From NCBI RefSeq assembly GCF_016909495.1, contig NZ_JAFBFW010000005.1:434001-498000 (forward strand): a stretch of DNA of 64,000 nt. Direction: 5' to 3'. This document shows, one piece after another, positions 33,568 through 53,442 of the stretch; the stretch's first letter is position 1, and each line of letters starts with the position of its first letter. The position numbers and the translations under genes are program-made. The notes under the pieces were generated by a model. It saw only the letters and a list, made by a program, of their open reading frames with translations, made no database searches and was not told the origin of the DNA. The stretch comes from Pantoea coffeiphila (GTDB taxonomy: Bacteria > Pseudomonadota > Gammaproteobacteria > Enterobacterales > Enterobacteriaceae).

Positions 33568-33774
33568 GATCACTACCGTACAGTCAGTGTGGGAATAACA
33601 GCGCGATCTTGCCCAGCGGCGGATCGCGCTCACCGCCGACAGGCGGCTTAGAAAATAGATCCAGCAAGACCATCGATATGCACGGTGTTCACTGCCGTAC
33701 AGGCAGCTTAGAAACGGCGCTTTAGCTCTGCCTCTGCCGCTTCAGCGTTCACTGCCGTACAGGCAGCTTAGAAA
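33568..33774 (+). CRISPR. Orphan, decayed I-F CRISPR mini-array (four repeats, three spacers)
   Basis: Four repeats of the same family as the two large arrays start at 33568, 33628, 33687 and 33747. The last two equal the consensus (GTTCACTGCCGTACAGGCAG followed by CTTAGAAA). The first matches at 21 of 28 positions. The second is 27 bases and has CCGCC/GGCGG in place of CTGCC/GGCAG, so both sides of its hairpin stem have changed. All three spacers are exactly 32 bases. No leader or cas gene is adjacent; the main locus is about 4.3 kb downstream. Confidence 0.85.
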
Positions 33775-33818
33775 TAACAGGAAAGGTATGGTTTTAGACA
33801 GCACATCCTTAAGCCTGC

Positions 33819-37929: not shown

Positions 37930-38076
37930 GAACTGGTGAGTTGATACCCTTTATTTTACGGTTTTTTCATCTATCTGATTTGTATGGATATTATTATGGC
38001 TGTAAAAAAGAGGGGTTAACGAGCGCTTAAAGCGAAAACCTGATTATCCTCATCGGGTTATCGTGACAGGATAACG
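37930..38076 (+). promoter_or_regulatory. Probable leader of CRISPR1
   Basis: An AT-rich, gene-free stretch immediately before the first repeat, ending in the inverted pair GTTATCGTGACAGGATAAC. The repeats decay at the other end of the array, which places the leader here and makes transcription rightward. Confidence 0.65.
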
Positions 38077-39606
38077 GTTCACTGCCGTACAGGCAGCTTA
38101 GAAATGGCGTGCCACTTCGGCGATTAGGCTGGTTTCGTTCACTGCCGTACAGGCAGCTTAGAAATGGAAAAACTTCTGGGAAGAAATGGCCCGTAAGTTC
38201 ACTGCCGTACAGGCAGCTTAGAAAACCACACCTCTATCTCCGAAGGCGTTATATTTGTTCACTGCCGTACAGGCAGCTTAGAAATGGTACATCGAGCCAG
38301 CGGAGACCGGACCACCGTTCACTGCCGTACAGGCAGCTTAGAAAAATCGTCAATATTGCCATCCCAATGTATGAGGGTTCACTGCCGTACAGGCAGCTTA
38401 GAAATGCGTGATAGTCTCGGGCCAGGCAGGCGTAGTGTTCACTGCCGTACAGGCAGCTTAGAAATTTCCAACTCCGCAACGTGGGCTACTGGATTCGTTC
38501 ACTGCCGTACAGGCAGCTTAGAAAAGTGCAACATCCAGAGGCTGTGTATTCCAACCGTTCACTGCCGTACAGGCAGCTTAGAAATGAATCATAAAACCGG
38601 TGGTGGCATCCTGATGGTTCACTGCCGTACAGGCAGCTTAGAAAGATAAGACCTGCAAAATCTCCTCATCGGTCGTGTTCACTGCCGTACAGGCAGCTTA
38701 GAAATACAACCCCGGATGTAACATGAATGGCGAAAAGTTCACTGCCGTACAGGCAGCTTAGAAATTCCCAGATGATGCCAGCACCAGCCACAGACGGTTC
38801 ACTGCCGTACAGGCAGCTTAGAAATGACAGCGGACCAGCAGCGCGTAATTGCTGAAGTTCACTGCCGTACAGGCAGCTTAGAAACAATCGCGTTAAACCC
38901 GTTGTTCTGGTCCAGCGTTCACTGCCGTACAGGCAGCTTAGAAAAGGAGAATGGTGTAGTGCTCTGCAAAATGGGGGTTCACTGCCGTACAGGCAGCTTA
39001 GAAATGACAGGCAAAACCGGCAGTCCGCCAAAACCTGTTCACTGCCGTACAGGCAGCTTAGAAAAAACTCGCCTACCCATACCGGCGCGATGTTCTGTTC
39101 ACTGCCGTACAGGCAGCTTAGAAAAAATAACAGCAATGTGCAGAGACTGGTAATGTGTTCACTGCCGTACAGGCAGCTTAGAAAAGAGAACGGCTTGAAT
39201 CCGATAACAGTGACATGTTCACTGCCGTACAGGCAGCTTCGAAACATTCGGCAGAACTGTTCGGGTGAGGCTTAAAGTTCACTGCCGTACAGGCAGCTTA
39301 GAAATTTCAGGAAGAGAGACCATCGAAGCCGTCAGGGTTCACTGCCGTACAGGAAGCTTAGAAAAGTATTGGGCCTCAAGCGCATTAATTGCCGCTGTTC
39401 ACTGCCGTACAGGCAGCTTAGAAAAGGTTGCAGCCCGTAGCTCTCGGTGCGAATGATCGTTCACTGCCGTACAGGCAGCTTAGAAATTACAGTCCTCACA
39501 GGTGTCCATGCCCCACTAGTTCACTACCGTACTGGCCGCTTACAGATGCTTGCTTTATCTACGAGCCAGGTAGAACAGGTGTACTATCGTACTGTCTCCA
39601 TCACTA
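38077..39606 (+). CRISPR. CRISPR1, type I-F array
   Basis: Twenty-four near-identical 28-base repeats begin at 38077 and recur every 60 bases to 39397, then at 39459, with 32-base spacers (one of 34). The repeat is GTTCACTGCCGTACAGGCAG followed by CTTAGAAA, giving the 5-bp CTGCC/GGCAG hairpin cut by Cas6f. Decay is confined to the right end: one substitution at 39217, one at 39337, a diverged repeat at 39519, and a barely recognisable one at 39579 that keeps the phase. Frames through the array that repeat short peptides are artefacts. Confidence 0.98.
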
Positions 39607-39908: not shown

Positions 39909-40841
39909 ATGTCGTTAATTAACAGGTTAGCTACGTCGTTACAGCAGAGCGAACTGAAGGTAAATGCATACCTGGAAGGTGCATCGGGTAAGTACAAAGT
40001 TTACAGAATTCCCAAACGTACAACGGGTTTTCGAATCATTGCGCAACCTGCTAAGGCGCTGAAAGATTACCAACGTGCTTTTCTCCAGCTTTACCGCTTC
40101 CCCATTCATGAGTGCGCGATGGCGTATCAGAAAGGCAAAAGCATACGTGATAACGCGTTGGCTCATGCTCGAAATCCTTACCTGCTCAAAACCGATCTGG
40201 AAGATTTTTTTAATTCAATTACGCCCGATATTTTCTGGCAATGTGTTGAACGATCTTCCTCCAGTGAGTTGCAGTTCCAACTAGCGGACCGACGCTATGT
40301 GGATCAGGTTCTCTTCTGGAAGCCTACCAAACGCAGCACGCGGTTGATGTTGAGCGTGGGGGCGCCTTCTTCCCCTGTTATCTCGAATTTTTGCCTTTAC
40401 GAATTCGACACACTCATTAATGAATACTGTCGTGAACTGGACATTATTTACACACGTTATGCGGATGATCTGACTTTTTCCTGCAACACCCGTGAAGTGC
40501 TTAAGTCCGTTCCTGCGATTATCGAAACACTGTTAAATAAGATTTTCAGCAAAAAACTAAGGCTGAATCGTGGTAAAACCATTTTTTCTTCTATGGCGCA
40601 TAACCGCCATGTTACGGGCGTCACGCTAAATAACGAAGGTCGGCTTTCTTTAGGTCGTGAACGCAAAAGGTTTATCAAGCATCTTATTAATCAGTACCGA
40701 TATGGGATGATTGATGAATCTGATAAGGCCTATCTTGTTGGACTACTGGCTTTTGCAAGCCATATTGAGCCAGATTTTATTCTTAGAATGAACGATAAAT
40801 ATTCATATGAGCTGATGGATCGTTTGAGGAGGCAGCAGTGA
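39909..40841 (+). CDS. Retron reverse transcriptase
   Basis: A 310-residue RT that should make msDNA from the ncRNA just upstream, primed from the branching G. Catalytic YADD is Tyr184-Asp187 ([12 protein letters not shown]). Retron-specific marks are both present: NAxxH in region X (Asn82-Ala83...His86) and VTG in region Y (Val235-Gly237). The last codons overlap the GTG start of the ATPase gene. With the ATPase and HNH genes it forms a type I-A retron, the class of Retron-Eco7 (Ec78), in which an RT-msDNA complex holds a Septu-like PtuAB effector in check until a phage trigger. Confidence 0.95.
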
Positions 40842-42496
40842 CTAAACAACTGGAGCGTAAAGCCAGAGGAGGGAGTTTACTCTCTGCCTTCGAACTTTAT
40901 CAGCAGGAGAAAAGTACAGCTTCTCTCGGCCCGGATGAGAAAGCCGGAGAGTGGTTCGAGTTTTGCTGGAGTTATCTACAAAATTCCGCACATCTCAATT
41001 CCGACATATATTCTCCAGAAAATCCATTTTTCATGCGTTCGATGTCACTGACCGATTTCCGTCGCTTCCCACAGCTCGATATAAATTTTGAAGCCGATCT
41101 GACCATTATTATTGGTAATAACGGGAAGGGTAAAACCAGTATTCTTTATGCGATTTCCAGGACGTTGAGCTGGTTCACTGCGAATATCCTTAAAGAGGAC
41201 AGCAGTGGGCAAAGACTTAACGAATACTTGGATATCAGGAATGATTCAGATAATCGTTTCACGGATATCAACTCCAGTTTCTCTTTTGGCAAAGGACTTA
41301 AGAACATTTCTATCCGGCTTTCGCGCTCAGCTTTGGGCGCTGCTGAGCGGAGAGAAAGCATTATCAGACCGGCTAAAGAGGTTGCGGATATCTGGCGGGT
41401 TATCAACGATCGGAGAATCGTTAATCTTCCTGTTTTTGCACTTTACTCCGTTGAACGCTCACACCCCTTCAAAAAATCGGCAAAAGAGAGCGCTGAAAAC
41501 CGAGAAGAGCGGTTTGATGCATACAATTATGCGTTAACCGGTGCCGGGCGTTTCGATCACTTTGCTGAATGGTTTATCTCTCTTCACAAAAGATCTGAGG
41601 CTCAAGGGGCATCGGCAATCGAACTACTGCAAGAGCAGGTGAATGACCTGGAGCAGTTAGTCAACAACGGGCTGATCTCAATGATCCCGCTTCTGGAAGA
41701 GACGAAAAGTAAACTACTGACGGCTCAGCTGAGAAAAGAGGCGCTCCAGTCCGTGAACATTCTGACGGACGTGACCCAAATGGATATTGTATCCCGAGCC
41801 ATTACCCGGGTCGTCCCCAGCATAAGTCGCATTTGGGTTGAGACATCATCGGGTGCGGATATTATCAAGGTTACGAACGATCTGCAGGATGTCACTATTG
41901 AACAGCTATCTGATGGACAACGGGTATTTCTGGCCCTGGTCGCCGACCTCTCGCGACGTATGGTTATGCTTAACCCGCTGTTAAAAAATCCGCTTGAGGG
42001 TCGAGGCATCGTTCTCATTGATGAGATTGAGCTACATCTTCATCCAAAATGGCAGCAGGAAGTTATCGTTACTTTGCGCACGGTTTTCCCTAATATCCAG
42101 TTTGTCGTCACAACCCACAGCCCAATCGTGTTATCCACGACTGAAACTCGCTGTATCCGTGAGTTCAGGGAAAACGATAAAACCGGAGAGGTGTTTTTGG
42201 CCGTCCCTCCTATTCAGACCAAAGGCAGTGAGAATTCGGAAATTCTTGAGCAAGTGATGGGCGTTTTCTCAACTCCGCCGAACATTGCTGAATCCTATCT
42301 CCTTAGCAATTTTGAGGAATCAATTATTGGTGAGGGTGATGAACTGAGTGCTGAATCTCTCAACCTTTATAATAATATCGCTTCGCATTTTGGCCAGAAT
42401 AGTTCCGAGCTGAAAAAAGCAGACAGCCTGCTACGCCTTCACCGAATGAAAAACAAAATTAGCCGAGCAAAACGCGAAAAGGATAATCAGGGATGA
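40838..42496 (+). CDS. ptuA: Retron effector ATPase (PtuA-like)
   Basis: A 552-residue ABC/SMC-type ATPase. Walker [10 protein letters not shown] is at about residues 92-100, the ABC signature region reads [21 protein letters not shown], Walker B is [11 protein letters not shown] near residue 391 and the switch is [12 protein letters not shown]. This is the PtuA architecture of Septu and of type I-A retrons. The GTG start overlaps the RT stop, and its end overlaps the HNH gene by four bases. In the Eco7 model it assembles with PtuB and msDNA-RT; the toxic output here is inferred from that model. Confidence 0.9.
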
Positions 42497-43137
42497 AGTT
42501 ACTCAACCGTACTGCTGGACCGGAACATTTACGCCAGTTCAGGGGCGGACGCGACCGGTGGAGGGCTGTTGATAAAGAATTAATTTGGCGGTATTTATTA
42601 GAAATGCAGGGTGAGTTTTGCGCCTATTGTGAGTGCAGTCTCAATCGGAAGCACATAGAACATTTCAGGTCGAGAGATGAATTTACTGCATTAACCTTTG
42701 AATGGGGGAATTTATTTGGATCGTGTGGGGATACAAAAGCAGGTGGCTGGCAACGTTGTGGAATATATAAAGATAATGGCGCAGGTCAGTACCATCCGGA
42801 TCACCTTATCAAACCTGATGATGACAACCCTGACGATTATCTTTTATTCCTGACCTCGGGGCAGGTTGTTCCTGCTAAAGGCATCGACGAGATAAAATTA
42901 TTAAAAGCGCAGGAAACTATTAGGGTATTCAACCTTAACGGAGATTCTGCACTGCTTGGCCGTAGAAAAAAAGCGTTAAGCTTCATTATGGAGGAAGTTA
43001 AAGAGCTTTATGATGCCTATGATGAACTTGGTGAAGAGCAATGGCGCGAATTTCTTGATGATGAGGTTAACGCTTCTAAAAATAAAGAGTTCAGTACGGC
43101 ATTAAAGCACGCATGGCTTCACAAATGCGATTATTAA
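42493..43137 (+). CDS. ptuB: Retron effector HNH protein (PtuB-like)
   Basis: A 214-residue HNH-type nuclease. A zinc pair appears as Cys43-x-x-Cys46 (FCAYCECS), and the HNH core as His54-Ile-Glu-His57, followed by the Asn in WGNLFGSC and a further Cys in GWQRCG. It is coupled to the ATPase gene by an ATGA overlap. In Septu and type I-A retrons this partner supplies the nuclease, acting on host RNA such as tRNA in the Eco7 case. The three retron genes and ncRNA are more AT-rich than the host backbone, fitting horizontal gain. Confidence 0.9.
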
Positions 43138-43278: not shown

Positions 43279-44256
43279 ATGGAAACGATCGGCTCGTCGG
43301 ATTTAAAGACGATTCTGCATTCCAAACGCAGCAATATTTATTACCTGCAATACTGCCGGGTTTTGGTAAACGGTGGACGTGTGGAATATGTCACGGATGA
43401 AGGTAAACGATCGCTTTACTGGAACATCCCTATCGCAAATACCACCGTGGTGATGCTGGGAACCGGCACGTCGGTGACTCAGGCTGCGATGCGCGAGTTT
43501 GCCCGTGCAGGTGTGCTGGTCGGATTCTGCGGAGGTGGCGGCACACCGTTGTATGCGGCTAATGAAGTTGAAGTCGATGTTTCCTGGCTGAGTTCGCAAA
43601 GCGAATATCGCCCTACGGAATATTTACAGCACTGGGTTAGTTTCTGGTTTGATGAAGAGTTACGTTTGGAAGCTGCAATTGCGTTTCAGCGCGTTCGAAT
43701 AAACCAGATTCGGCAGGCATGGAGCAGTGCGAAAATGCAGCGAGAAGATAAATTCACTATTGATATTCCTCGTCTGAACGGTGTCCTGGAACGTTTTGAG
43801 CAGGGCCTCGCAGGTTGTCGTAATAGTACTGATCTGTTGGCGCTCGAGGCAGTAATGACCAAGGCGTTATATAAACTCGCTGCCGAAAGCGTTAAATATG
43901 GCGACTTTACCAGGGCAAAACGTGGGGGTGGTATCGATCGCGCCAACCGTTTTCTCGATCATGGTAACTATCTGGCCTATGGCCTTGCTGCGGTGGCCTG
44001 TTGGGTTATCGGCTTACCGCACGGATTAGCCGTGCTGCATGAAAAAACTCGCCGGGGCGGGCTGGTATTTGATGTAGCGGATTTGATTAAAGATGCACTG
44101 ATTCTACCGCAGGCGTTTATTGCGGCGATGGCCGGTGAAGAAGAACAAGAGTTCCGCCAGCGCTGCCTCACCAGCCTGCAAAATGCTGATGCGCTGGATA
44201 CGATGATTAACGCGCTGGAGTCCGTAGCGCAGCAGCTGAGCCGGGTGGGAAAATGA
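43279..44256 (+). CDS. cas1: CRISPR-associated integrase Cas1, type I-F
   Basis: A 325-residue I-F Cas1 which, with Cas2-3, captures and inserts spacers. Beginning METIGSSDLKTILHSKRSNIYYLQYCRVLVNGGRVEY, it has the family block GTGTSVTQAAMREFARAGVLVGFCGGGGTP and a C-terminal helical domain containing DHGNYLAYGLAAVACWVIGLPHG. The start follows AGAGGATC. It overlaps cas2-3 by four bases. The 141-base gap before it should contain the promoter of the adaptation operon, now cut off from CRISPR1 by the retron. Confidence 0.96.
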   Translation: METIGSSDLKTILHSKRSNIYYLQYCRVLVNGGRVEYVTDEGKRSLYWNIPIANTTVVMLGTGTSVTQAAMREFARAGVLVGFCGGGGTPLYAANEVEVDVSWLSSQSEYRPTEYLQHWVSFWFDEELRLEAAIAFQRVRINQIRQAWSSAKMQREDKFTIDIPRLNGVLERFEQGLAGCRNSTDLLALEAVMTKALYKLAAESVKYGDFTRAKRGGGIDRANRFLDHGNYLAYGLAAVACWVIGLPHGLAVLHEKTRRGGLVFDVADLIKDALILPQAFIAAMAGEEEQEFRQRCLTSLQNADALDTMINALESVAQQLSRVGK

Positions 44257-47200
44257 ATATTCTGTTAATTTCCCAATGTAATAAACGGGCTTTGGAAGAG
44301 AGTCGGCGAATTCTCGATCTGTTTGCGGAACGAAAAGGCGATCGTAGCTGGCAAACCGCTATTACCTGGCAGGGGTTACAGACGCTGCGTAAGCTGCTGC
44401 GCAAAACCGCGCGCAGGAATACTGCGGTTGCCTGCCACTGGGTCAAGAAGGACGGGCAAAGCGAACTGCTATGGATTGTTGGAAACCTTCGCCGTTTTAA
44501 TGAGCTGGGCACTGTTCCAACGAATACCACGACGGCTGACGTACTCAAAAGTAAAGACGAAAACAGCTGGCACAGCATTGAAGCGATAGGTCTGCTGGCC
44601 GCTATTGCGGGTCTTTTTCATGATTTCGGTAAGGCTAACAGCCTGTTTCAAAAAATGCTGCGCGGAGAAAAGGGCATCCGTTCGTTTCAGCCCTATCGCC
44701 ATGAATGGATTTCGCTGCGCTTATTTTGTGGTTGGGTGGGTGAACGCAGTGACCGTGAATGGCTCAGCGCGTTGAGCCACATAGATGCCAGTGATGAACC
44801 TGCAATGCTGGCATCTGTGAAAAAAGATGGACTGACGGATTCACCTAACGCGTTCGAAAAGCTACCACCGGTAGCCCGAGTGGTGGCCTGGCTGATTCTC
44901 TCTCATCATCGTTTACCCAGCTATCAGCGAAGAAAAGGTCAGGGTTTGCCTCCTGAACTTATCAATCAGGAGCACTGGCTGACTCATCATCTTGACGTGG
45001 TGTGGAACGCGCTTAATCATGAAATGACAGACTGGATGCAGTCAGATCTTCAGGCGCAGTGGCTGTTTCCACAGGGAACCCCGATACGCAGCAGTACATG
45101 GCGGGCGAAAGCCAGAAAACTGTCACAGCGATTACTGGCTCAGCCTGCGTGGCTGGCCCAGATCGATCTTAATCAACGGTTTACCTGCCATCTTGCCCGC
45201 CTGGTTCTTATGCTGGCCGATCATTTCTATTCTTCTCAGCCAGCAACACCCGGCTGGCAGGCTCCAGGCTATTTATCCCTTGCTAACACCGATCGTGATA
45301 CCGGTAAACCAAAGCAGAAGCTGGACGAGCATAATATTGGCGTGGCGCAGAATGCGTTGCTTCTGGCCAGAAGCCTGCCGAATTTACGGCGCAGCCTGCC
45401 AGCGATTACTCGCCATAAAGGATTTAAAAAGCGCAGCGAGCAAGAAAAATATCGTTGGCAGGACAAAGCTTATGATGCCGCACTTGCCTTGCGTGAGCGA
45501 GCAGCAAAGCAGGGATTCTTTGGCATCAATATGGCTTCAACCGGCTGCGGTAAAACATTCGCCAATGCGCGTATTATGTACGCGCTGGCCGATGAACAGC
45601 AGGGTTGCCGTTTCTCGGTGGCCCTTGGTCTACGAGCCTTAACGCTGCAAACCGGTGATGCGCTGCGTGAAAAACTGACGCTGCAAGAGGATGATTTAGC
45701 GGTACTGATTGGTTCGCAGGCTATGGCACAGTTGCATCAATTGCGGATCGATGAAGAGACATCCGCTGCTGCTAACGGCAGTGAATCCGCCGATGCGTTA
45801 GTGGCTGAGCATCAGTATGTCAGTTACGACGGTAGCCTGGATGACGGACGACTTAGCCTCTGGCTCAAAAGCGACAACAGCCTACATAAACTGATCAGTG
45901 CGCCAGTGCTGGTGACGACTATCGATCACTTAATCTCTGCAACGGAAGGACTACGGGGAGGCCGACAGATTGCTCCCATGCTGCGGTTACTGACTTCGGA
46001 TCTGGTGCTTGATGAACCGGATGATTTTGATATTGATGACCTTCCTGCCCTGTGCCGGCTGGTTAACTGGGCAGGGATGCTGGGTTCGCGCGTGCTGCTT
46101 TCCTCGGCAACGTTGCCTCCCGCGCTGGTGCTGGCGCTGTTTAATGCCTATCGCAGCGGGCGTGAAATTTTTCAGAAAGCCTGTGGGCTGGATGAGAACA
46201 GTCCGGTTTGCTGCGCGTGGTTTGACGAGAATGAGACGTTTACGGAAGAGGTGATCCAACCGCTGGAGTTTAAATCGCGACATGAAGAGTTCGTTACGCG
46301 GCGGATAGGCCGTCTGGATAAAACACCGGTGCTGCGGCGTTGCAGATTGGTGCCGATTGCTTCTGCAACGCATGATGAAGCAGCAGTGTATCGTAGCGTT
46401 GCTGAATGCATATTCAGTTCGATGCTGGCTCTGCATGCTGAGCATCATCAACGTCACTCTGAATCGGGTAAAACCGTGTCCGTGGGCATTGTGCGTATCG
46501 CCAATATAAACCCGCTGGTTGCGATTGCCCGGCTACTGATGTCGACCCCTGCTGCGGAAAACCACCATATTCATTACTGCGTGTACCACAGCCAGCATCC
46601 TCTGGCGATGCGTTCATGGATTGAGCGCAGATTGGATGAGACCTTAACGCGCTATCAGGAGCAGGCTTTATGGCATGTTGAGGAAATCGAAAATGCGCTG
46701 AGTCAGCATCCGCAACAGCATCATCTGTTCGTGGTACTGGCAACGTCCGTTGCTGAAGTCGGCAGGGATCATGATTACGACTGGGCGATTGCCGAACCGA
46801 GTTCAATGCGCTCACTTATTCAACTGGCGGGTCGAATCCAGCGCCATCGACAGCAGCCGGTAGGGGCGGATAATTTCTATATCCTGCAGCAAAATATACG
46901 CGCGTTAAAAAATCCTGGTACACCGCGAGCGGCCTACTGCCTGCCCGGTTTTGAAAATACAACGTTTATGCTGGCCAGCCACGATCTTAATCAACTGCTG
47001 AAGCCTGAACAGTACGCAATCATCAGCGCCGCGCCGCGTATCCAGGAAAGAGCGAAACCGGACGTTCGCTCACCTTTTAGCAATTTTGCCGATCTGGAGC
47101 ATCGACGTCTGTGGGTAGAATTACAGGGAGTAAAGGATTCCCCTGACTGTGCTGCGCTCTGGTGGCGCGAGCAGATGACATGGTGCGGTGAACTACAGCG

Positions 47201-47528
47201 TCAAAAGCCCTTCCGTCAATCGCAGCCTGAATTGCTGTATTTTCTATTGATTGCTGAAGAAGGGGATATCCCCGAATTCTACTTTCCAGATGATGGCCCG
47301 GCAGGCCGTAAGCGAAGCGGAGACTTCTCCGTGGTTAACCCTGTATTTGCCAAAGGGAACAGCGCATGGATGGTGCCGGACTATCAGCAAATCTATCTGG
47401 ATCTGGCCGATAAACTGGGTATGGAGTTAGAAGCGATAAGTATACGCTTTGGCGAGATCGTTCTGCCTGACAGACAGGGTGATAGCTGGTGTTTTCATCC
47501 GATTTTTGGCGTGTTTAAAGAAAGGTAG
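44253..47528 (+). CDS. cas3: Cas2-Cas3 fusion, type I-F
   Basis: A 1091-residue fusion. The N-terminal Cas2 domain covers about residues 1-95. An HD nuclease follows, with His123-Asp124 in LFHDFGKAN. The superfamily 2 helicase has Walker A MASTGCGKTFANA near residues 428-434, a DEPDD motif near 586, and the late motif SLIQLAGRIQRHRQ. It joins Cas1 in spacer acquisition and degrades DNA marked by the Csy complex. Length is typical for the I-F family. In most I-F loci csy1 follows at once; here an insert starts after this gene. Confidence 0.96.
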   Translation: MNILLISQCNKRALEESRRILDLFAERKGDRSWQTAITWQGLQTLRKLLRKTARRNTAVACHWVKKDGQSELLWIVGNLRRFNELGTVPTNTTTADVLKSKDENSWHSIEAIGLLAAIAGLFHDFGKANSLFQKMLRGEKGIRSFQPYRHEWISLRLFCGWVGERSDREWLSALSHIDASDEPAMLASVKKDGLTDSPNAFEKLPPVARVVAWLILSHHRLPSYQRRKGQGLPPELINQEHWLTHHLDVVWNALNHEMTDWMQSDLQAQWLFPQGTPIRSSTWRAKARKLSQRLLAQPAWLAQIDLNQRFTCHLARLVLMLADHFYSSQPATPGWQAPGYLSLANTDRDTGKPKQKLDEHNIGVAQNALLLARSLPNLRRSLPAITRHKGFKKRSEQEKYRWQDKAYDAALALRERAAKQGFFGINMASTGCGKTFANARIMYALADEQQGCRFSVALGLRALTLQTGDALREKLTLQEDDLAVLIGSQAMAQLHQLRIDEETSAAANGSESADALVAEHQYVSYDGSLDDGRLSLWLKSDNSLHKLISAPVLVTTIDHLISATEGLRGGRQIAPMLRLLTSDLVLDEPDDFDIDDLPALCRLVNWAGMLGSRVLLSSATLPPALVLALFNAYRSGREIFQKACGLDENSPVCCAWFDENETFTEEVIQPLEFKSRHEEFVTRRIGRLDKTPVLRRCRLVPIASATHDEAAVYRSVAECIFSSMLALHAEHHQRHSESGKTVSVGIVRIANINPLVAIARLLMSTPAAENHHIHYCVYHSQHPLAMRSWIERRLDETLTRYQEQALWHVEEIENALSQHPQQHHLFVVLATSVAEVGRDHDYDWAIAEPSSMRSLIQLAGRIQRHRQQPVGADNFYILQQNIRALKNPGTPRAAYCLPGFENTTFMLASHDLNQLLKPEQYAIISAAPRIQERAKPDVRSPFSNFADLEHRRLWVELQGVKDSPDCAALWWREQMTWCGELQRQKPFRQSQPELLYFLLIAEEGDIPEFYFPDDGPAGRKRSGDFSVVNPVFAKGNSAWMVPDYQQIYLDLADKLGMELEAISIRFGEIVLPDRQGDSWCFHPIFGVFKER

Positions 47529-47540
47529 GTGTTTCTTATA

Positions 47541-47577
47541 TTATTGATATGGCGTAAAAATTACGCCATATCAATAA
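47541..47577. terminator. Perfect palindrome ending both cas2-3 and the leftward small RNA
   Basis: A 17-bp stem (TTATTGATATGGCGTAA and its complement) with an AAA loop, twelve bases after the cas2-3 stop and ten bases beyond the leftward crRNA-like unit. It suits convergent termination, although T runs are short. It separates cas1-cas2-3 transcription from csy1-4. Confidence 0.65.
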
Positions 47578-47586
47578 AGGGTTAGT

Positions 47587-47665
47587 CTAATGGTCTGCCT
47601 GTTCGGCAGTAAACGTAATGTATATGTATAGCAACTATTTCTAAGCTGCCTGTTCGGCAGTGATG
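47587..47665 (-). ncRNA. CreA/CreR-like crRNA mimic (repeat - 23-nt guide - degenerate repeat)
   Basis: Read leftward, the first pseudo-repeat (47665-47638) matches the array repeat at 25 of 28 positions and keeps the whole 8-base handle CTTAGAAA. The guide is 23 bases (47637-47615), not 32. The second pseudo-repeat (47614-47587) keeps the hairpin CTGCC-GAACA-GGCAG but has lost the last eight bases, which Cas6f cleavage would discard anyway. Both share the same loop change (T to A). The parts needed for processing into one short crRNA are thus conserved and the rest has decayed, the pattern described for CreA and CreR guides in type I systems. Confidence 0.8.
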
Positions 47666-47667
47666 TC

Positions 47668-47698
47668 ATCATACCGTTTAAAGCATTTTTATTGCCAA
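47668..47698 (-). promoter_or_regulatory. Candidate promoter of the crRNA mimic
   Basis: Leftward TTGGCA (47698-47693) and TATGAT (47673-47668), each five of six to consensus but 19 bases apart, would start RNA within the first bases of the pseudo-repeat. The long spacing lowers confidence. Confidence 0.45.
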
Positions 47699-47786
47699 AC
47701 ATTTTCAAGTTTGAAGCCCTCCTGCTTTTTGAACAAAATTTCCTCTTTGCAAGTTGATTACGCTGATGTAGTATCATCTTTATGAT

Positions 47787-47818
47787 CTTTTATATATTAA
47801 TAGTAACTAGGTTGTGTA
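47787..47818 (-). promoter_or_regulatory. Leftward promoter overlapped by a PAM-linked target of the crRNA mimic
   Basis: On the minus strand, CC (47811-47810) is followed by a 23-base site (47809-47787) that matches the guide at positions 1-5, 7-10, 13-17, 19 and 22. CC is the type I-F PAM, and positions 6, 12 and 18, which Cascade does not pair, are all among the mismatches. The same bases hold a promoter: TACACA (47818-47813) and TATAAA (47794-47789) 18 apart. Bound Csy complex would cover it. Mismatches beyond the seed should allow binding without Cas3 cutting. Confidence 0.65.
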
Positions 47819-47907
47819 TTTCTGAGTGATTAGCGTAACCACCGAACATCTAAGTTTTTTGAGCGGTTCAACAGTACATTATTGATTGTTCATGTTTACA
47901 AATAGTC

Positions 47908-47983
47908 CTCTTTTTTGGGTCCTTTTTGTTTACATAAATCAATATAATTCAGTATTATTACATTTAGGGCTCTTTTTTGGGTC
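47908..47983 (+). promoter_or_regulatory. abiE promoter between two direct-repeat operators
   Basis: The 14-base direct repeat CTCTTTTTTGGGTC occurs at 47908-47921 and 47970-47983. Between the copies lie TTTACA (47929-47934) and TATTAT (47953-47958) with an 18-base spacer. AbiEi antitoxins repress their own promoters by binding repeated sites, so these are the likely operators. The antitoxin start is 21 bases after the second repeat. Confidence 0.75.
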
Positions 47984-48003
47984 TTTATTGTAGAGATAAA
48001 GAG

Positions 48004-48537
48004 ATGAATACACTAAGTGCGATTAACTCGCTGGATAGTTACAGTGAAAAAGGGCGATATGTTTTTCATTTAAATGACTTCAGAAACTTGTTTTCTGATG
48101 AACCAGAGCGGGCGTTGAAGTCTTCCCTCAAACGACTGGTTGATAAGAAAATACTGACCCGAGCCGCACAAGGTGTATATGTTTACAATCGAGCCAATAA
48201 AGACGCTTATATCCTTGAACATATTACTAAAACTCTGCGTAGGGGGGAATACAACTACGTGAGTCTTGAATCAGCGCTATCCCAATATGGTGTGATTTCT
48301 CAGGTGCCAATGGACAGGCTCACAGTGATGACCACCGGAAGAAGTGGGGAGTTTAGTACACCCTGGGGAATGATTGAGTTAACGCACACAGAAAGGTCCG
48401 TCGGCGATATTCTTCAAGGTACTATTGAAACAAAGTCTCCGATTAAGTTTGCAAAAAAAGATACCGCTTTACGGGACCTCCGACGAGTTGGCCGGAATAT
48501 GCATTTAGTTGATTTCGGAGCCCTGGAAAATGCCTAA
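48004..48537 (+). CDS. abiEi: AbiEi-type antitoxin
   Basis: A 177-residue type IV antitoxin and autorepressor. An N-terminal winged-helix region is visible (ALKSSLKRLVDKKILTRAAQGVYVYNR), followed by the C-terminal antitoxin domain (YVSLESALSQYGVISQVPMDRLTV). I chose the ATG at 48004 after AAAGAG over an in-frame TTG nine codons earlier. The stop lies within the start of abiEii (ATGCCTAA), so the two are coupled. AbiE systems act in phage abortive infection. Base composition is AT-rich compared with the flanking cas genes. Confidence 0.88.
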   Translation: MNTLSAINSLDSYSEKGRYVFHLNDFRNLFSDEPERALKSSLKRLVDKKILTRAAQGVYVYNRANKDAYILEHITKTLRRGEYNYVSLESALSQYGVISQVPMDRLTVMTTGRSGEFSTPWGMIELTHTERSVGDILQGTIETKSPIKFAKKDTALRDLRRVGRNMHLVDFGALENA

Positions 48538-49450
48538 AAAAGTAGAATTTGATGAGCTGGTCGAAGAAGCTATCCGACAGGGCGGGCTGGCAAACTTACG
48601 TCCGGTGGTAGAAAAAGAACTACTGCATTATGACATTCTCTTTTGCCTTTCAGAAGCCGGGTTACTCAAAGGGCTGACTTTCCAGGGCGGTACATCTTTG
48701 CGGCTCTGCTACGGCTCAAACCGGTTCAGTGAAGATTTGGATTTTGCCGGAGGTCGTGATTTTTGTTCTGCTGATTTGATAAAGGTAAAAAATTGCATTG
48801 AGGATTATCTTGGCGAACGTTATGGGCTCGAAGTAACGGTTAAGGAGCCCAGGGATTTGCGTGAACAGCCTGAGTATGCTGAGGTGAAAGTTGATAAATG
48901 GCAAATATCCGTAATAACAGCACCGGAAAACAAGGATATACCCCGGCAGCGTATCAAAATTGAAATTGCCAATATTCCTGCCTATACCCATGCTTACCGA
49001 CAGTTAGTTCGCAATTACACGGTTTTGCCGGATGGGTACAGTGATACATTGATAAAAGTTGAAACACTTGAAGAGGTTATGGCGGATAAACTGGTTTCCC
49101 TTCCAGCCGCAACTCATCGTATACGCTATCGCGATATGTGGGATCTCATTTGGTTACAGCAGCAGGGTGCAACAATCGATGTAAACCTGGTGAGTAGAAA
49201 ATTGAGTGATTATAAGATTGAGCGCTTTCAGGAAAAAATTCAAAATCGATTAGATTCTTTCCGGGAAATCATTGAAGACGGTAAGTTTTACGCAGAAATG
49301 AAACGCTTCATACCCTCATCGGTTTATGAAACGAGTATTGGAAAAGAGGGTTTTTCTTTATTTCTACAGGATAGTCTTAAAGATTTATTTACCCAGTTAA
49401 AAAAAGGATTGTATTCGGATGGAAGTGGTGTGAATTCATTTAGATTATGA
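48530..49450 (+). CDS. abiEii: AbiEii nucleotidyltransferase toxin
   Basis: A 306-residue toxin of the AbiEii/AbiGii family. The nucleotidyltransferase motif begins near residue 53 as GGTSLRLCYGSNRFSEDLDF, containing the Gly-rich turn and both catalytic Asp. A further conserved block is KVETLEEVMADKLVSL. Family members add nucleotides to RNA targets such as tRNA and stop growth; AbiEi counteracts this without stable binding. The ATG at 48530 overlaps the antitoxin gene. The gene ends 106 bases before csy1 with no obvious terminator. Confidence 0.9.
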   Translation: MPKKVEFDELVEEAIRQGGLANLRPVVEKELLHYDILFCLSEAGLLKGLTFQGGTSLRLCYGSNRFSEDLDFAGGRDFCSADLIKVKNCIEDYLGERYGLEVTVKEPRDLREQPEYAEVKVDKWQISVITAPENKDIPRQRIKIEIANIPAYTHAYRQLVRNYTVLPDGYSDTLIKVETLEEVMADKLVSLPAATHRIRYRDMWDLIWLQQQGATIDVNLVSRKLSDYKIERFQEKIQNRLDSFREIIEDGKFYAEMKRFIPSSVYETSIGKEGFSLFLQDSLKDLFTQLKKGLYSDGSGVNSFRL

Positions 49451-49556: not shown

Positions 49557-50903
49557 ATGTTGCAGGAGACATTGGCTTCTTTTATTACCGACTACATCAA
49601 TGAACGGAAAACAGCAAAGCTCGAACTATTTGAAAAGGAAGAGAAAAAACAGCTATCCGCTCTGTCTGAACAGGGGGAGGCAGCATCGGTCGTGCAGGAC
49701 CTGAATCAACAGCGTGCGGAAATTGAAAAAAAATACCAGCTGAAAGCCTGGTTAACCGATGCCGCCAGTCGGGCCGGGCAAATCAGCCTGGTCACTCATG
49801 CGTTGAAGTTCACCCACAGCGATGCACGCGGCAGCAGCGTTTTCTCTGGGGAGGCAACCACTTCCACTTCCTATCTTTCAACCGCAACGCTAGGTAAACC
49901 AACGCTGGATGCAGTGGGTAACGCTGCGGCACTGGATATCGCCAAGCTGTTGCAAACTGAAGTTCAGGGGGATTCATTAATCGCCAGCCTTAATCGTGGT
50001 GATTACTCTGCGCTGGAGTCCTTAACCGATGACAGAGAACTTTCAGATGTCTGGATTGAAGGATTCAAACAGGTACTGATCGATAAGCAACCCGCCAGCC
50101 ATAAACTGGCTAAGCAAATCTATTTCCCCATCGCGCCACAGCATTACCATCTTATCAGCCCTCTCTTTTCATCCTCTTTGGCACATGTCCTGCATCAGCG
50201 TATTGCCGATGCGCGATTCAGTGAAGAGGCCAAAAATGCGCGAGCGGCAAAGAAGGCAAAAACCTGGCATAGCGAAGCGGTGGTGGATTTTCCTGCCACC
50301 GCGGTAACTAACTTCGGGGGGACTAAGCCGCAGAATATTTCTTATCTGAACAGCGTGCGCAGGGGAAGAGTCTGGTTGTTACCCTGCTTGCCTCCTGCAT
50401 GGCGGGCGGTGATTAAACCACCTTCGAAAAACCAGTCCCTGTTTTCTTACAGTGAATTTTCCCGCCAGGCCTGGCCGGTAATTCTCAGAATGAAACGCTA
50501 CTTACATCAGGTACAGCCGTTGGACAGTACGATGGAGATTCGTCAGCAGCGGTTGGCCTTCACTGATGAAATTATCGATATCCTGTTCAATTATGCTGCG
50601 GGGATTCAGAACCTTACGCAGTTCAGCGGTTGGAGTGCCGATCCGGAATGTAGGCTAAAACAGTCTCAGCGGCTCTGGCTGGACCCGCTGCGCAGCAAAA
50701 CCGATCGGCAGTTTCAGCTTGAGCGTGAAAAGGGTGACTGGAAACAAGAGATCGCCCGTGATTTTGGCCTGTGGCTCAATCATCAGCTGCGGGATGAAAC
50801 GCTGAGGTTGGGGGCAGTGGAGCACCGGAATTTTTCGGCATCTCCTTTGCTTAACAAGCGCCTGCGCGAACTGGAAGATGATTTAGCAGAGGATCTGCCA
50901 TGA
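49557..50903 (+). CDS. csy1: Csy1 (Cas8f), large subunit of the I-F surveillance complex
   Basis: A 448-residue Cas8f that recognises the PAM and holds the 5' handle together with Csy2. Typical stretches are [20 protein letters not shown] and [21 protein letters not shown], where the [11 protein letters not shown] block is a family mark. A strong AAGGAG precedes the ATG. It overlaps csy2 by four bases. In most type I-F loci it directly follows cas2-3; here 2 kb intervene. Confidence 0.95.
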
Positions 50904-51850
50904 GCAACCTGATTATTTTACGCCATCTGCGTGTCGAAAACGCCAATGCGATTGCCGGCCTTACCTGGGGTTTTCCGGCTATAACGCATTTTCTTGGTTT
51001 GACTCATGCGTTGTCTCGCCAGCTCACTCAAACACACGGTATTGAGTTAGACGGTTGTGGCGTGGTCTGCCATCAGCAGCAGGTACACGCGCACTCTTCA
51101 GGCCGCGATCACGTATTTTCCCTGACCCGCAATCCACTAACCCGAGAAGCTAAGACAGCCGCTTTTAATGAAGAGGGGCGGATGCACATGACGGTATCTC
51201 TGTTGATTCGCTTTAACGGAATGATTCGTGATGGGGAGCAGGGGGCTGCTGCACTTGCCGGGCATATTGCAACGCTGTGTCAGCGGTTGAGGCTGGCCGG
51301 AGGAACGGTGACTGCCATAGAGAAGGTGCAGATTATGGGGTGGCCAGAGGATGAGCGGCAGGCCCGACGGGTATTGCGTCGTTTACTACCTGGTTTTGCC
51401 TTGTTGGATCGCTCTCCTTTGCTGGCTGAGCATTTTTCCCATCTGCAGCAGTCCCGGCCTGAAGCCGAAATGATTGATGCGTGGCTGGATTTTTCCACCA
51501 TCAAAATGCAGGCGGTAGCAAATGAAGCTGAACCAGATGAACCTGTTAGCTGGCAGTATCAGCCTAAACCAGCCGCAGGCTTCCTCGTTCCGTTGATGAT
51601 CGGTTATCAGGCGATTTCTCCGATCTATGAGCCCGGCAAGGTAAGTAATGCTCGTGATACGCACACGCCGTTTTGTTTCACCGAGGCGATATATGGCGTA
51701 GGTGAGTGGCGAGGCCTGCATCGAGTTGATGATTTACGTGAACTGCTCTGGCAGTACCACTATGAGGATGGAAGCTATCTCTGCCGGAGTGAAATAACGG
51801 CCAGCGACCAGAATTACTCAGAATATGACGAAGAAATCAATTACAACTAA
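50900..51850 (+). CDS. csy2: Csy2 (Cas5f)
   Basis: A 316-residue RAMP-fold Cas5f that, with Csy1, caps the 5' end of the crRNA. It starts with the family's [35 protein letters not shown] region and contains [27 protein letters not shown]. The start overlaps csy1 and the stop is 23 bases before csy3, so the four csy genes form one operon. Confidence 0.95.
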
Positions 51851-51873
51851 TTTAACGTTATAAGGAAATAATC

Positions 51874-52878
51874 ATGGCTAAATCAACAATTAAGACCGCA
51901 TCCGTCCTGGCTTTTGAACGCAAATTATCTAACTCTGATGCCATCATGCTGGCTGGAAAATGGCAGGAAAGTGAGGGATGGCAGCCAATCAAAATTCAGG
52001 ATAAGGCGGTGCGCGGTACCATTTCTAACCGTTTGAAGAATGCGATTGCCAGCGATCCGTTAAAGCTTGATGCTGAAATTCAAAAAGCGAACCTGCAACG
52101 CGTTGATGTTGCCGCTCTGCCGTACGACACCGATACCCTGAAAGTCTGTTTTACCCTGCGGGTACTGGGCGATCTCTCCACGCCATCCGTTTGTAATGAT
52201 CGCCTGTATCAGGCAGAACTGACCTCCGTAATTAACGGTTATGTCACCCGGCACGGCTTCAGCGAGCTGGCGGCACGCTACGCCGAAAACATTGCGAATG
52301 GGCGTTTTCTGTGGCGAAACCGCGTTGGCGCCGAGCGAATTTCGGTACAGGTAAATAGCGGAGAGCGCGTCTGGAAGTTTAACAGCCATGACTACAGCCT
52401 GCGTTCGTTCAGTCAGCCACAGGGCGATCTGCTGGAACTGGCACAGGCAATTGAACAGGGTCTGGCTGGTAATGCATTCGCGCTGTTTAACGTGGAAGCG
52501 CAGGTTTACCTTGGCAACGGCCAGGAAGTCTTTCCATCACAGGAGCTGGTGCTGGACAGCAACAGTAAAAAAAGTAAAGTCCTCTATCAGATCAATGATG
52601 TCGCTGCTATACACTCGCAAAAAATCGGTAATGCCTTACGGACTATCGATACCTGGTATCCGGAGGCAGATGAACAGGACGTCGGTCCAATTTCAGTAGA
52701 GCCTTATGGTTCAGTCACCAGCAGAGGTATCGCTTATCGCCAGCCGGTTAAAAAAATGGATTTTTACACGCTGCTGGATAACTGGGTCACTAAAGCGCAG
52801 GAACCTGATGTGACGCAGCAACACTATGTGATGGCTACGCTGATTCGTGGTGGCGTATTCGGCGAGAAAAGCGAGTAG
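51874..52878 (+). CDS. csy3: Csy3 (Cas7f) backbone subunit
   Basis: A 334-residue Cas7f; six copies line a 32-nt guide in canonical I-F complexes. Recognisable blocks are [21 protein letters not shown] at the N terminus and [21 protein letters not shown] near the C terminus. If the 23-nt guide of the crRNA mimic is used, the complex would need fewer copies of this subunit. Confidence 0.95.
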
Positions 52879-52887
52879 AGGCTGGCT

Positions 52888-53442
52888 ATGGATTACTATC
52901 AGGATATTCGCGTACTGGCGGATGCTGAGACAGCGGAGCACGTTGTCATGGCGCAGCTTTTTCAACGATTGCACCAGTATTTACAGCGTGCCGCCGATGG
53001 CCGGATAGGTATCAGCTTTCCGGAGGTAAAACTGACGCTGGGCAACAGGCTGCGGCTACACGGATCGCAGGAGGATTTGTCTTCCCTACAGCAGTGCGAC
53101 TGGCAGCATGGTCTGAAGGATTATATTCATTGCGACGTTATAGCCAGGGTGCCAGAGAATAAAAGCTGGCGCACCGTCAGGAGAGTGCAGGTCAAAAGCA
53201 GCGCTGAGCGCCTGCGCCGCCGCTCGGTTAAAAAAGGCTGGTTAAGTGAATCAGAGGCGCAGCAGCAGATTAACGCGATAAATGAACAGCGTAGCGATCT
53301 GCCTTTCCTGTTTATAAAAAGTGGCAGCAACGGTAACGCCTATCCATTTTTTATTGAGCATGGTCCGATCGGTCCTGTGCCGGTTCCTGGAGAGTTTAGT
53401 TCCTATGGCTTGAGTGCCACTACACCTATCCCCTGGTTCTGA
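52888..53442 (+). CDS. cas6f: Csy4 (Cas6f) crRNA endonuclease
   Basis: A 184-residue Cas6f that cuts each repeat after the 20th base, 3' of the hairpin, and stays bound. The catalytic His29 is in AQLFQRLHQYL, the arginine-rich hairpin-binding helix is SAERLRRRSVKK, and the C terminus is YGLSATTPIPWF as in the Pseudomonas enzyme. The hairpins in CRISPR1, CRISPR2, the orphan array and the crRNA mimic all keep the stem it recognises. Confidence 0.96.
   Translation: MDYYQDIRVLADAETAEHVVMAQLFQRLHQYLQRAADGRIGISFPEVKLTLGNRLRLHGSQEDLSSLQQCDWQHGLKDYIHCDVIARVPENKSWRTVRRVQVKSSAERLRRRSVKKGWLSESEAQQQINAINEQRSDLPFLFIKSGSNGNAYPFFIEHGPIGPVPVPGEFSSYGLSATTPIPWF

Follow-up and report, generated by a model that had tools for sequence, protein, structure and literature searches.

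The closest known case of the arrangement analysed here is the type I-F CreTA of Acinetobacter. As the available part of PMC10097628 describes it, this system occurs in Acinetobacter sp. WCHA45, LoGeW2-3 and ANC3789 in the gap between cas3 and csy1, where two degenerate repeats, PsiR1 and PsiR2, accompany a 20-nt guide, and this guide matches a site close by that carries a 5' CC. Guide and target disagree there at positions 6, 11 and 18 of the first 18. Beyond the target lies the tested RNA toxin, a mini-ORF of 33 bp that has a strong ribosome site and is directed away from creA. The supplement of that paper holds 19 further modules. Related systems differ in what is controlled. CreR comprises mini-CRISPR RNAs that regulate cas genes (Liu et al. 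2023, cited in PMC12737573) and, in the excerpts of this literature at hand, is described for types I-B, I-E and V-A; another review, in its accessible part, calls it widespread in type I. In CrePA it is a protein toxin that CreA controls (Shu et al. 2025, cited in PMC12737573), and this toxin, CreP, is typically a KilA-N protein.

We analysed a window of 64,000 nt from Pantoea coffeiphila contig NZ_JAFBFW010000005.1, and all coordinates given are positions in that window. It holds a type I-F locus in the order array, retron, cas1, cas2-3, the region under study, abiEi and abiEii, csy1–csy4 and second array, with I-F arrays on either side of the cas genes (Table 1). The retron set, between the first array and cas1 (39909–43137), is type I-A-like and comprises a reverse transcriptase (PADLOC, 3.1e-137), a PtuA-like ATPase (2.4e-201) and a PtuB-like HNH protein (1.8e-66). 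At 33628–33777, about 4 kb ahead of the first large array, stands a separate mini-array with two spacers and three I-F repeats, of which the first is degenerate.

Table 1. Positions of the features discussed in the text, in window coordinates.
Feature	Position	Strand	Basis or remark
First CRISPR array	38076–39547		
cas1	43279–44256		
cas2-3, upstream neighbour of the mimic	44253–47528	+	Pfam
Palindrome after the mimic, likely terminator of mimic and cas2-3	47541–47577	.	RNA fold
PsiR2, second degenerate repeat	47587–47614	-	Hairpin part 47595–47614 retained
Guide	47615–47637	-	23 nt
PsiR1, first degenerate repeat	47638–47665	-	Hairpin CTGCC/GGCAG; 5' handle at 47638–47645; CRISPR-DR4
Predicted promoter of the mimic	47668–47698	-	TTGGCA (47693–47698), 19 nt, TATGAT (47668–47673); ends 7 nt before hairpin
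Best rightward promoter candidate before the target	47747–47777	+	TTGCAA, 19 nt, TATCAT; z 0.74; p 0.08; not significant alone
Target	47787–47811	-	Protospacer 47787–47809, CC PAM 47810–47811; match, shuffles, uniqueness, relatives
Leftward promoter string	47789–47818	-	TACACA-N18-TATAAA; named by the original prediction; not supported as promoter
abiE control region	47887–48003	+	Direct repeats 47896–47938 and 47958–48000; TTTACA-N18-TATTAT at 47929–47958; consensus scan
abiEi, antitoxin of the type IV pair	48004–48537	+	PADLOC AbiEi 2.6e-72; Pfam
abiEii, nucleotidyltransferase toxin	48530–49450	+	PADLOC AbiEii 6.6e-119; Pfam PF08843
csy1, csy2, csy3, csy4 (Cascade and Cas6f)	49557–53442	+	Pfam for Csy1, Csy3 and Csy4; Cas5f/Csy2 call
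Second CRISPR array	from 53571		

The window resembles the Acinetobacter CreTA in its place in the cas3–csy1 gap, in its PsiR1 and PsiR2, in its CC-flanked site nearby and in the direction of the stretch beyond the target, which runs the same way as the mini-ORF (PMC10097628). Its guide, however, has 23 nt, position 12 joins 6, 11 and 18 among the mismatches of the first 18, and an AbiE pair follows the target in place of the mini-ORF. With CreR, as far as the excerpts go, it shares a crRNA-like guide that partly matches a nearby putative promoter, and the target of some I-F relatives lies at the putative csy1 promoter, whereas abiE parts target from csy1 in the window. A protein toxin would be under crRNA-like antitoxin control as in CrePA, but in the window the pair is a complete type IV system that brings its own promoter-like site; there is no KilA-N toxin downstream of its target, where the proteins are AbiEi and AbiEii. 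The two genes are complete and in the order known for AbiE type IV toxin–antitoxin systems from the accessible part of PMC3985639. Racr RNAs likewise mimic repeats outside arrays; as the available part of PMC10651486 presents them, they are solitary, viral and inhibit CRISPR-Cas, whereas two repeats and a matching guide stand in a host cas operon here.

The original prediction for this DNA knew of no description of such an I-F instance with an AbiE pair beside it. An I-F CreTA in this gap has in fact been published (PMC10097628), while the AbiE pair in the gap is new: the open-access papers searched, in which the hosts of the 19 supplementary modules are not covered, yielded no I-F CreA unit outside Acinetobacter, and no AbiE pair that stands within an I-F cas operon and follows a CreA target. 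Our reading of the locus, to which we assign a probability of about 0.6, is that a CreA-type mini-CRISPR guides Cascade to a nearby site and thereby likely silences a rightward promoter toward abiEi–abiEii and csy1–4.

A crRNA mimic between cas2-3 and csy1

The mimic occupies positions 47587–47665 on the minus strand and consists of a guide of 23 nt, TAGTTGCTATACATATACATTAC, with a degenerate I-F repeat on each side. PsiR1 is identical to the array repeat at 25 of 28 positions and has both the hairpin and the 5' handle CTTAGAAA. PsiR2 retains the 20 nt through the end of the hairpin (18/20 identical), and its final 8 nt have diverged. Rfam recognizes PsiR1 as CRISPR-DR4 with 36.8 bits, over the threshold of 35; PsiR2 scores 18.7 bits, below threshold. 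Cutting by Csy4 is predicted to yield an RNA of 8 + 23 + 20 = 51 nt. The original prediction had described just this layout, with hairpin and handle in the first repeat, hairpin only in the second and a processed RNA of about 51 nt, and the letters agree with it throughout.

A promoter of the mimic's own is predicted directly ahead of PsiR1, and the same placement recurs in relatives. Among the 44 units with a good target (see below), the −10 box 6–8 nt ahead of the PsiR1 hairpin scores above 4 in 33; its mean score over these units is 4.51, against 1.50 for the top mean of 200 shuffles. Because of this promoter, transcription of the mimic RNA is predicted to begin within the repeat itself and would not require a leftward promoter at the target. 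On its other side the mimic is followed by a hairpin: RNA from 47533–47590 (minus strand), which spans the palindrome, folds with a z of −8.45. The palindrome was absent from the list of a terminator scan based on a stem plus a T run.

The guide matches a PAM-flanked site nearby

Guide and target agree at positions 1–5, 7–10, 13–17, 19 and 22 and differ at 6, 11, 12, 18, 20, 21 and 23. Type I Cascade flips out every sixth base, and a mismatch rhythm of 6, 12 and 18 is expected. We scored matches over the first 18 guide positions minus 6, 12 and 18, which leaves 15 informative positions. The window's pair reaches 14/15, compared with a mean of 9.1 for the top site after shuffling of the intergenic DNA; no shuffle reached 14/15 in runs of 300 and 200. 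The target pattern with its PAM has a single mismatch-free occurrence in the 5.74-Mb genome, and allowing up to two mismatches adds only the guide itself; a reversed-pattern control likewise gives two hits. The mimic and its PAM-flanked guide match are thus confirmed as real, beyond chance. The seed match at 1–5, 7 and 8 beside a CC PAM about 150 bp away, the mismatches at 6, 12 and 18 and the pairing at 9–10 and 13–17, all foreseen by the original prediction, were found as described. The distance from mimic to target is 146 nt in the window, often 57–104 nt in relatives and 138–157 nt in three others.

Guide and target covary across type I-F loci

We surveyed the DNA upstream of csy1 in other type I-F loci. 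Of 37 genus genomes searched by protein or family, 10 were found to carry csy1; the order gave 60 among 394 genomes and the family 60 among 392. These sets overlap, and each includes the window's own genome. Including the window, 115 csy1-upstream regions were read, 60 through the genus and order sets and 54 through the family set; from the order set 8 of the 59 other csy1 genomes were left out (the seven weakest and G455). The scan for units was strict, in that it asked for hairpin plus handle and then a second hairpin, such that units with more degenerate handles would escape it. It found 48 mimic units in 47 of the 115 regions, the same layout that the original prediction had proposed to look for in other I-F loci. 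A DNA search for the exact unit across 147 genomes, own included, returned nothing beyond the window itself except a 29-bp match in G090, and a DNA search of E. coli genomes and plasmids did not find it. The sole exact-pattern match among genome contigs proved to be an ordinary array with a short spacer and was rejected as a unit.

The target of each unit was taken as the best CC-flanked site within its own gap. Among own guide–target pairs, 42 of 48 reach at least 12/15 and 44 of 48 at least 11/15. When guides were instead placed on the gaps of loci with unlike guides, at least 12/15 was reached in 1 of 2,034 swapped pairs and at least 11/15 in 58 of 2,034. By seed the guides fall into 23 clusters, and in 22 of these at least one member reaches 11/15. 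In the representatives of these 22 clusters, positions 1–5 match in 22, 22, 22, 22 and 21 cases and positions 7–11 in 22, 21, 21, 21 and 21, against only 7 at position 6, 5 at position 12 and 9 at position 18. Judged by these comparisons, guide and target covary across many I-F loci.

The hairpin stems also vary with compensation (CTGCC/GGCAG, CAGCC/GGCTG, CTACT/AGTAG): stem position 2 is T-A, A-T or C-G, and positions 4 and 5 are each C-G or T-A. The few unpaired stem cells stem from a misplaced stem frame in G089, G337 and G549.

Occurrence of the unit follows the length of the gap. None of 39 loci with less than 200 bp between cas3 and csy1 has a unit, whereas 42 of the 63 with at least 200 bp have a unit and a matching target; the lengths come from 102 of the 115 loci, as the stretches read for 12 loci showed no Cas3 and the gap of G203 was unmeasurable. 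The mimic unit therefore goes with a long cas3–csy1 gap in the loci compared. In 43 of 44 units the target sits between mimic and csy1.

No convincing target was found for four of the 48 units. G016 and G412 reach 10/15, a score equalled by 44 and 55 of 200 shuffles; the two units of G395 reach 9/15, which 11 and 111 of 200 shuffles equal. These four were excluded from the promoter, class and side tallies (n = 44) and kept in the swap test and the cluster count. By strand, 26 units are minus-type and 15, mostly from one genus, plus-type; the targets of G371, G549 and G666 lie opposite the usual strand, and these units stand outside the 26.

These results bear on the idea that the mimic is the stray end of an array, an ordinary CRISPR leftover whose match is accidental. 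I-F arrays do flank the cas genes on both sides and could supply such an end, but shuffling, swapping and the uniqueness in the genome are all contrary to chance, and the same position and layout recur in dozens of loci. We regard this explanation as hardly credible.

Direction of the promoter at the target

A consensus promoter scan detected none at the window target on either strand. In minus-type relatives a −35 box often stands directly at the PAM complement (GG, then a TTGATC-like box), with a −10 box 16–18 nt further on, reading toward csy1. In 11 of the minus-type units, G001 among them, such an abutting rightward promoter reaches p ≤ 0.05; the other 15 of the 26 are without a significant one, and in the window it is not recognisable (p 0.53). 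Over the minus-type units the abutting promoters combine to a chi-square of 147.8 with 52 degrees of freedom, uncorrected for relatedness, and combined p values overstate the evidence because many of the loci are related. Plus-type units have a TTGACA-like box with a −10 box after the target in 11 of 15 cases, and around the target the rightward score exceeds the leftward in 30 of 44 units. The promoters that can be called at the targets of relatives thus appear mostly to read toward csy1. In the 12 minus-type units classed as lacking an abutting promoter, which include the window (G089, G337 and G462, with p of 0.08–0.10, being counted as abutting), there is a trend for rightward promoters immediately ahead of the target (combined p 0.063) and none for leftward promoters across it (combined p 0.93).

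The original prediction had the target overlapping a leftward promoter. The TACACA-N18-TATAAA string exists, but its function as a promoter is not supported, its score lying below that of shuffled DNA (z −1.59; p 0.67). This weighs against a CreTA in the layout of that of Haloarcula hispanica, in which the target would lie within the leftward promoter of a small RNA toxin encoded from 47786 to 47666, on the mimic's strand and upstream of it. Such a reading could call on the position of the target, which covers the spacer and the −10 box of the string, on a perfect AGGAGG (47718–47723, minus strand) before a TTG codon, which could be chance, on a 68-aa frame running through the mimic, and on a mimic–target distance longer than in many relatives. 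The frame, however, has no family above cut-off and was not taken as a gene; RNA from 47666–47786 (minus strand) folds no better than shuffles (z −0.34); the leftward excess over the target is missing in the 12 units just described; and the mimic owns a predicted promoter. We consider a leftward toxin distinctly unlikely.

Because no promoter at the window target is convincing, we infer the identity of what it controls. The controlled promoter would likely read rightward, toward abiEi–abiEii and csy1–4.

A rightward promoter could also serve autoregulation of the CreR type. In this scheme mimic-guided Cascade would repress the csy1–4 promoter and so limit its own supply, with abiE as a passenger. 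No more than 120 nt separate target and csy1 in 8 of 44 units, several of which have a −35 at the PAM reading into csy1, for example G368 (TTGATC-16-TATACT), G318 and G454, and CreR is described for types I-B, I-E and V-A and, elsewhere in the accessible literature, as widespread in type I. In the window itself, however, 1,746 bp with abiE and its promoter-like site separate the target from csy1, and the rightward promoter that the scheme calls for is not convincing there. For this locus we therefore think autoregulation rather doubtful.

Several of the relatives are candidates for an I-F form of CreR in their own right. In G368, G089, G337, G318, G462 and G454 (L068, L069, L070, L106, L109 and L110) the target lies 47–88 nt before csy1, and the abutting promoter toward csy1 has p ≤ 0.05 in G368, G318 and G454 and 0.08–0.10 in the other three.

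The stretch between target and csy1

Across relatives the stretch from target to csy1 seems to work like a cargo slot, holding a hydrophobic peptide, a protein of about 105 aa or the putative csy1 promoter. A scan for slot frames with ribosome sites covered 36 units with a cut-off of its own. Some slots hold such frames for peptides of about 40–58 residues with one hydrophobic stretch; they were seen in G008, G020, G209, G479, G510, G527, G773, G782 and others (e.g. L056, L054, L062, L146 and L149). These small hydrophobic peptides are possible membrane toxins; none of those compared with Pfam and NCBIfam (five in one set, six in another) had a match over cut-off. The plus-type group has a protein of 104–107 aa in the slot (G238, G291, G421, G320, G403, G153, G366, G186 and G261), and the first 80 residues of one of these gave no Pfam or NCBIfam match over cut-off. 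In G238, G366 and G261 two target sites score equally well.

The slot of the window is occupied by the AbiE pair. A tblastn search of the other 114 csy1-upstream regions detected no AbiE, such that the pair in this gap is unique to the window among the 115; AbiEii relatives occur in 24 of the 392 genomes of the family, a count that includes the window's own. DNA like the abiE control region is also found upstream of a few abiE loci elsewhere. Since this control DNA starts at about 47887, some 75 nt past the target, the target belongs to the mimic unit and not to AbiE. Equally, AbiE need not depend on the target, because its own promoter-like site and operator repeats begin there. A hydrophobic frame of 33 codons at 47892 was rejected as slot cargo: it falls among the operator repeats of abiE, lacks a ribosome site and does not persist in this form in the congener G011.

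Proposed mechanism

The match, its covariation, the mismatches at 6, 12 and 18 and the mimic's predicted promoter together lead us to the CreA-type reading. It keeps one half of the CreTA- or CreR-like arrangement of the original prediction, the CreA-type guide, with guide and target agreeing in 22 of 23 guide clusters in the 6/12/18 mismatch rhythm, and gives up the leftward promoter and toxin.

On this model the mimic would be transcribed and Csy4 would cut both hairpins, releasing an RNA of 51 nt for loading into Cascade. The loaded complex would then find 47787–47811 through PAM and seed and, once bound, would block the rightward promoter without cleaving DNA. Cutting by Cas2-3 is not expected, because pairing past position 19 is poor, and by analogy with the repression described in the available part of PMC10097628 for Acinetobacter. 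Loss of Cascade, or its block by an anti-CRISPR, would free the promoter and raise the amount of slot product, here likely AbiE together with new Cascade. Such release would make CRISPR-Cas addictive or provide an answer to anti-CRISPRs. A more specific version, in which the I-F switch controls an exchangeable cargo slot, filled by an RNA toxin in Acinetobacter and by a peptide, a protein or csy1 itself in the relatives, that here has captured AbiE, kept silent by Cascade and released by anti-CRISPRs, is possible but decidedly tentative.

If the model is true, a CRISPR complex that cuts invaders doubles as a repressor of its own neighbourhood, and does so in far more I-F systems than the one tested. 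It would give a direct explanation of how cells sense that CRISPR has been disabled, whether through loss or through anti-CRISPRs, and it would account for the separation of cas3 from csy1 that so many I-F loci show. With a protein toxin–antitoxin pair in the slot, CRISPR would be tied to abortive infection.

Loss of the unit in a congener

The congener G011 (L059), whose Cas3 is 90% identical, carries a scar at this position: the abiE operator and first codons adjoin the end of abiEii, and mimic and target are gone. Hence abiE was once present there, and abiE and the mimic with its target were both lost. As G011 retains cas3 and csy1 without the mimic, the unit is dispensable.

Alternatively, the window itself might hold a relic: the arrival of abiE would have cost a CreTA or CreR unit its promoter and cargo, while guide and target match for the time being. 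Besides the loss of the whole unit in G011, the want of a recognisable abutting promoter would fit, as would the finding that no frame of at least 10 codons with a ribosome site starts in the roughly 180 nt between target and abiE. Decay would not, however, long preserve a match of 14/15 along with hairpins, handle, predicted promoter and trailing hairpin, all of which are intact, and we hold a relic to be unlikely. The reading in which Cascade is still guided to the target is the one we prefer.

Another congener, G014 (L215), in which no csy1 was found, has DNA like the abiE operator directly ahead of a truncated abiEii.
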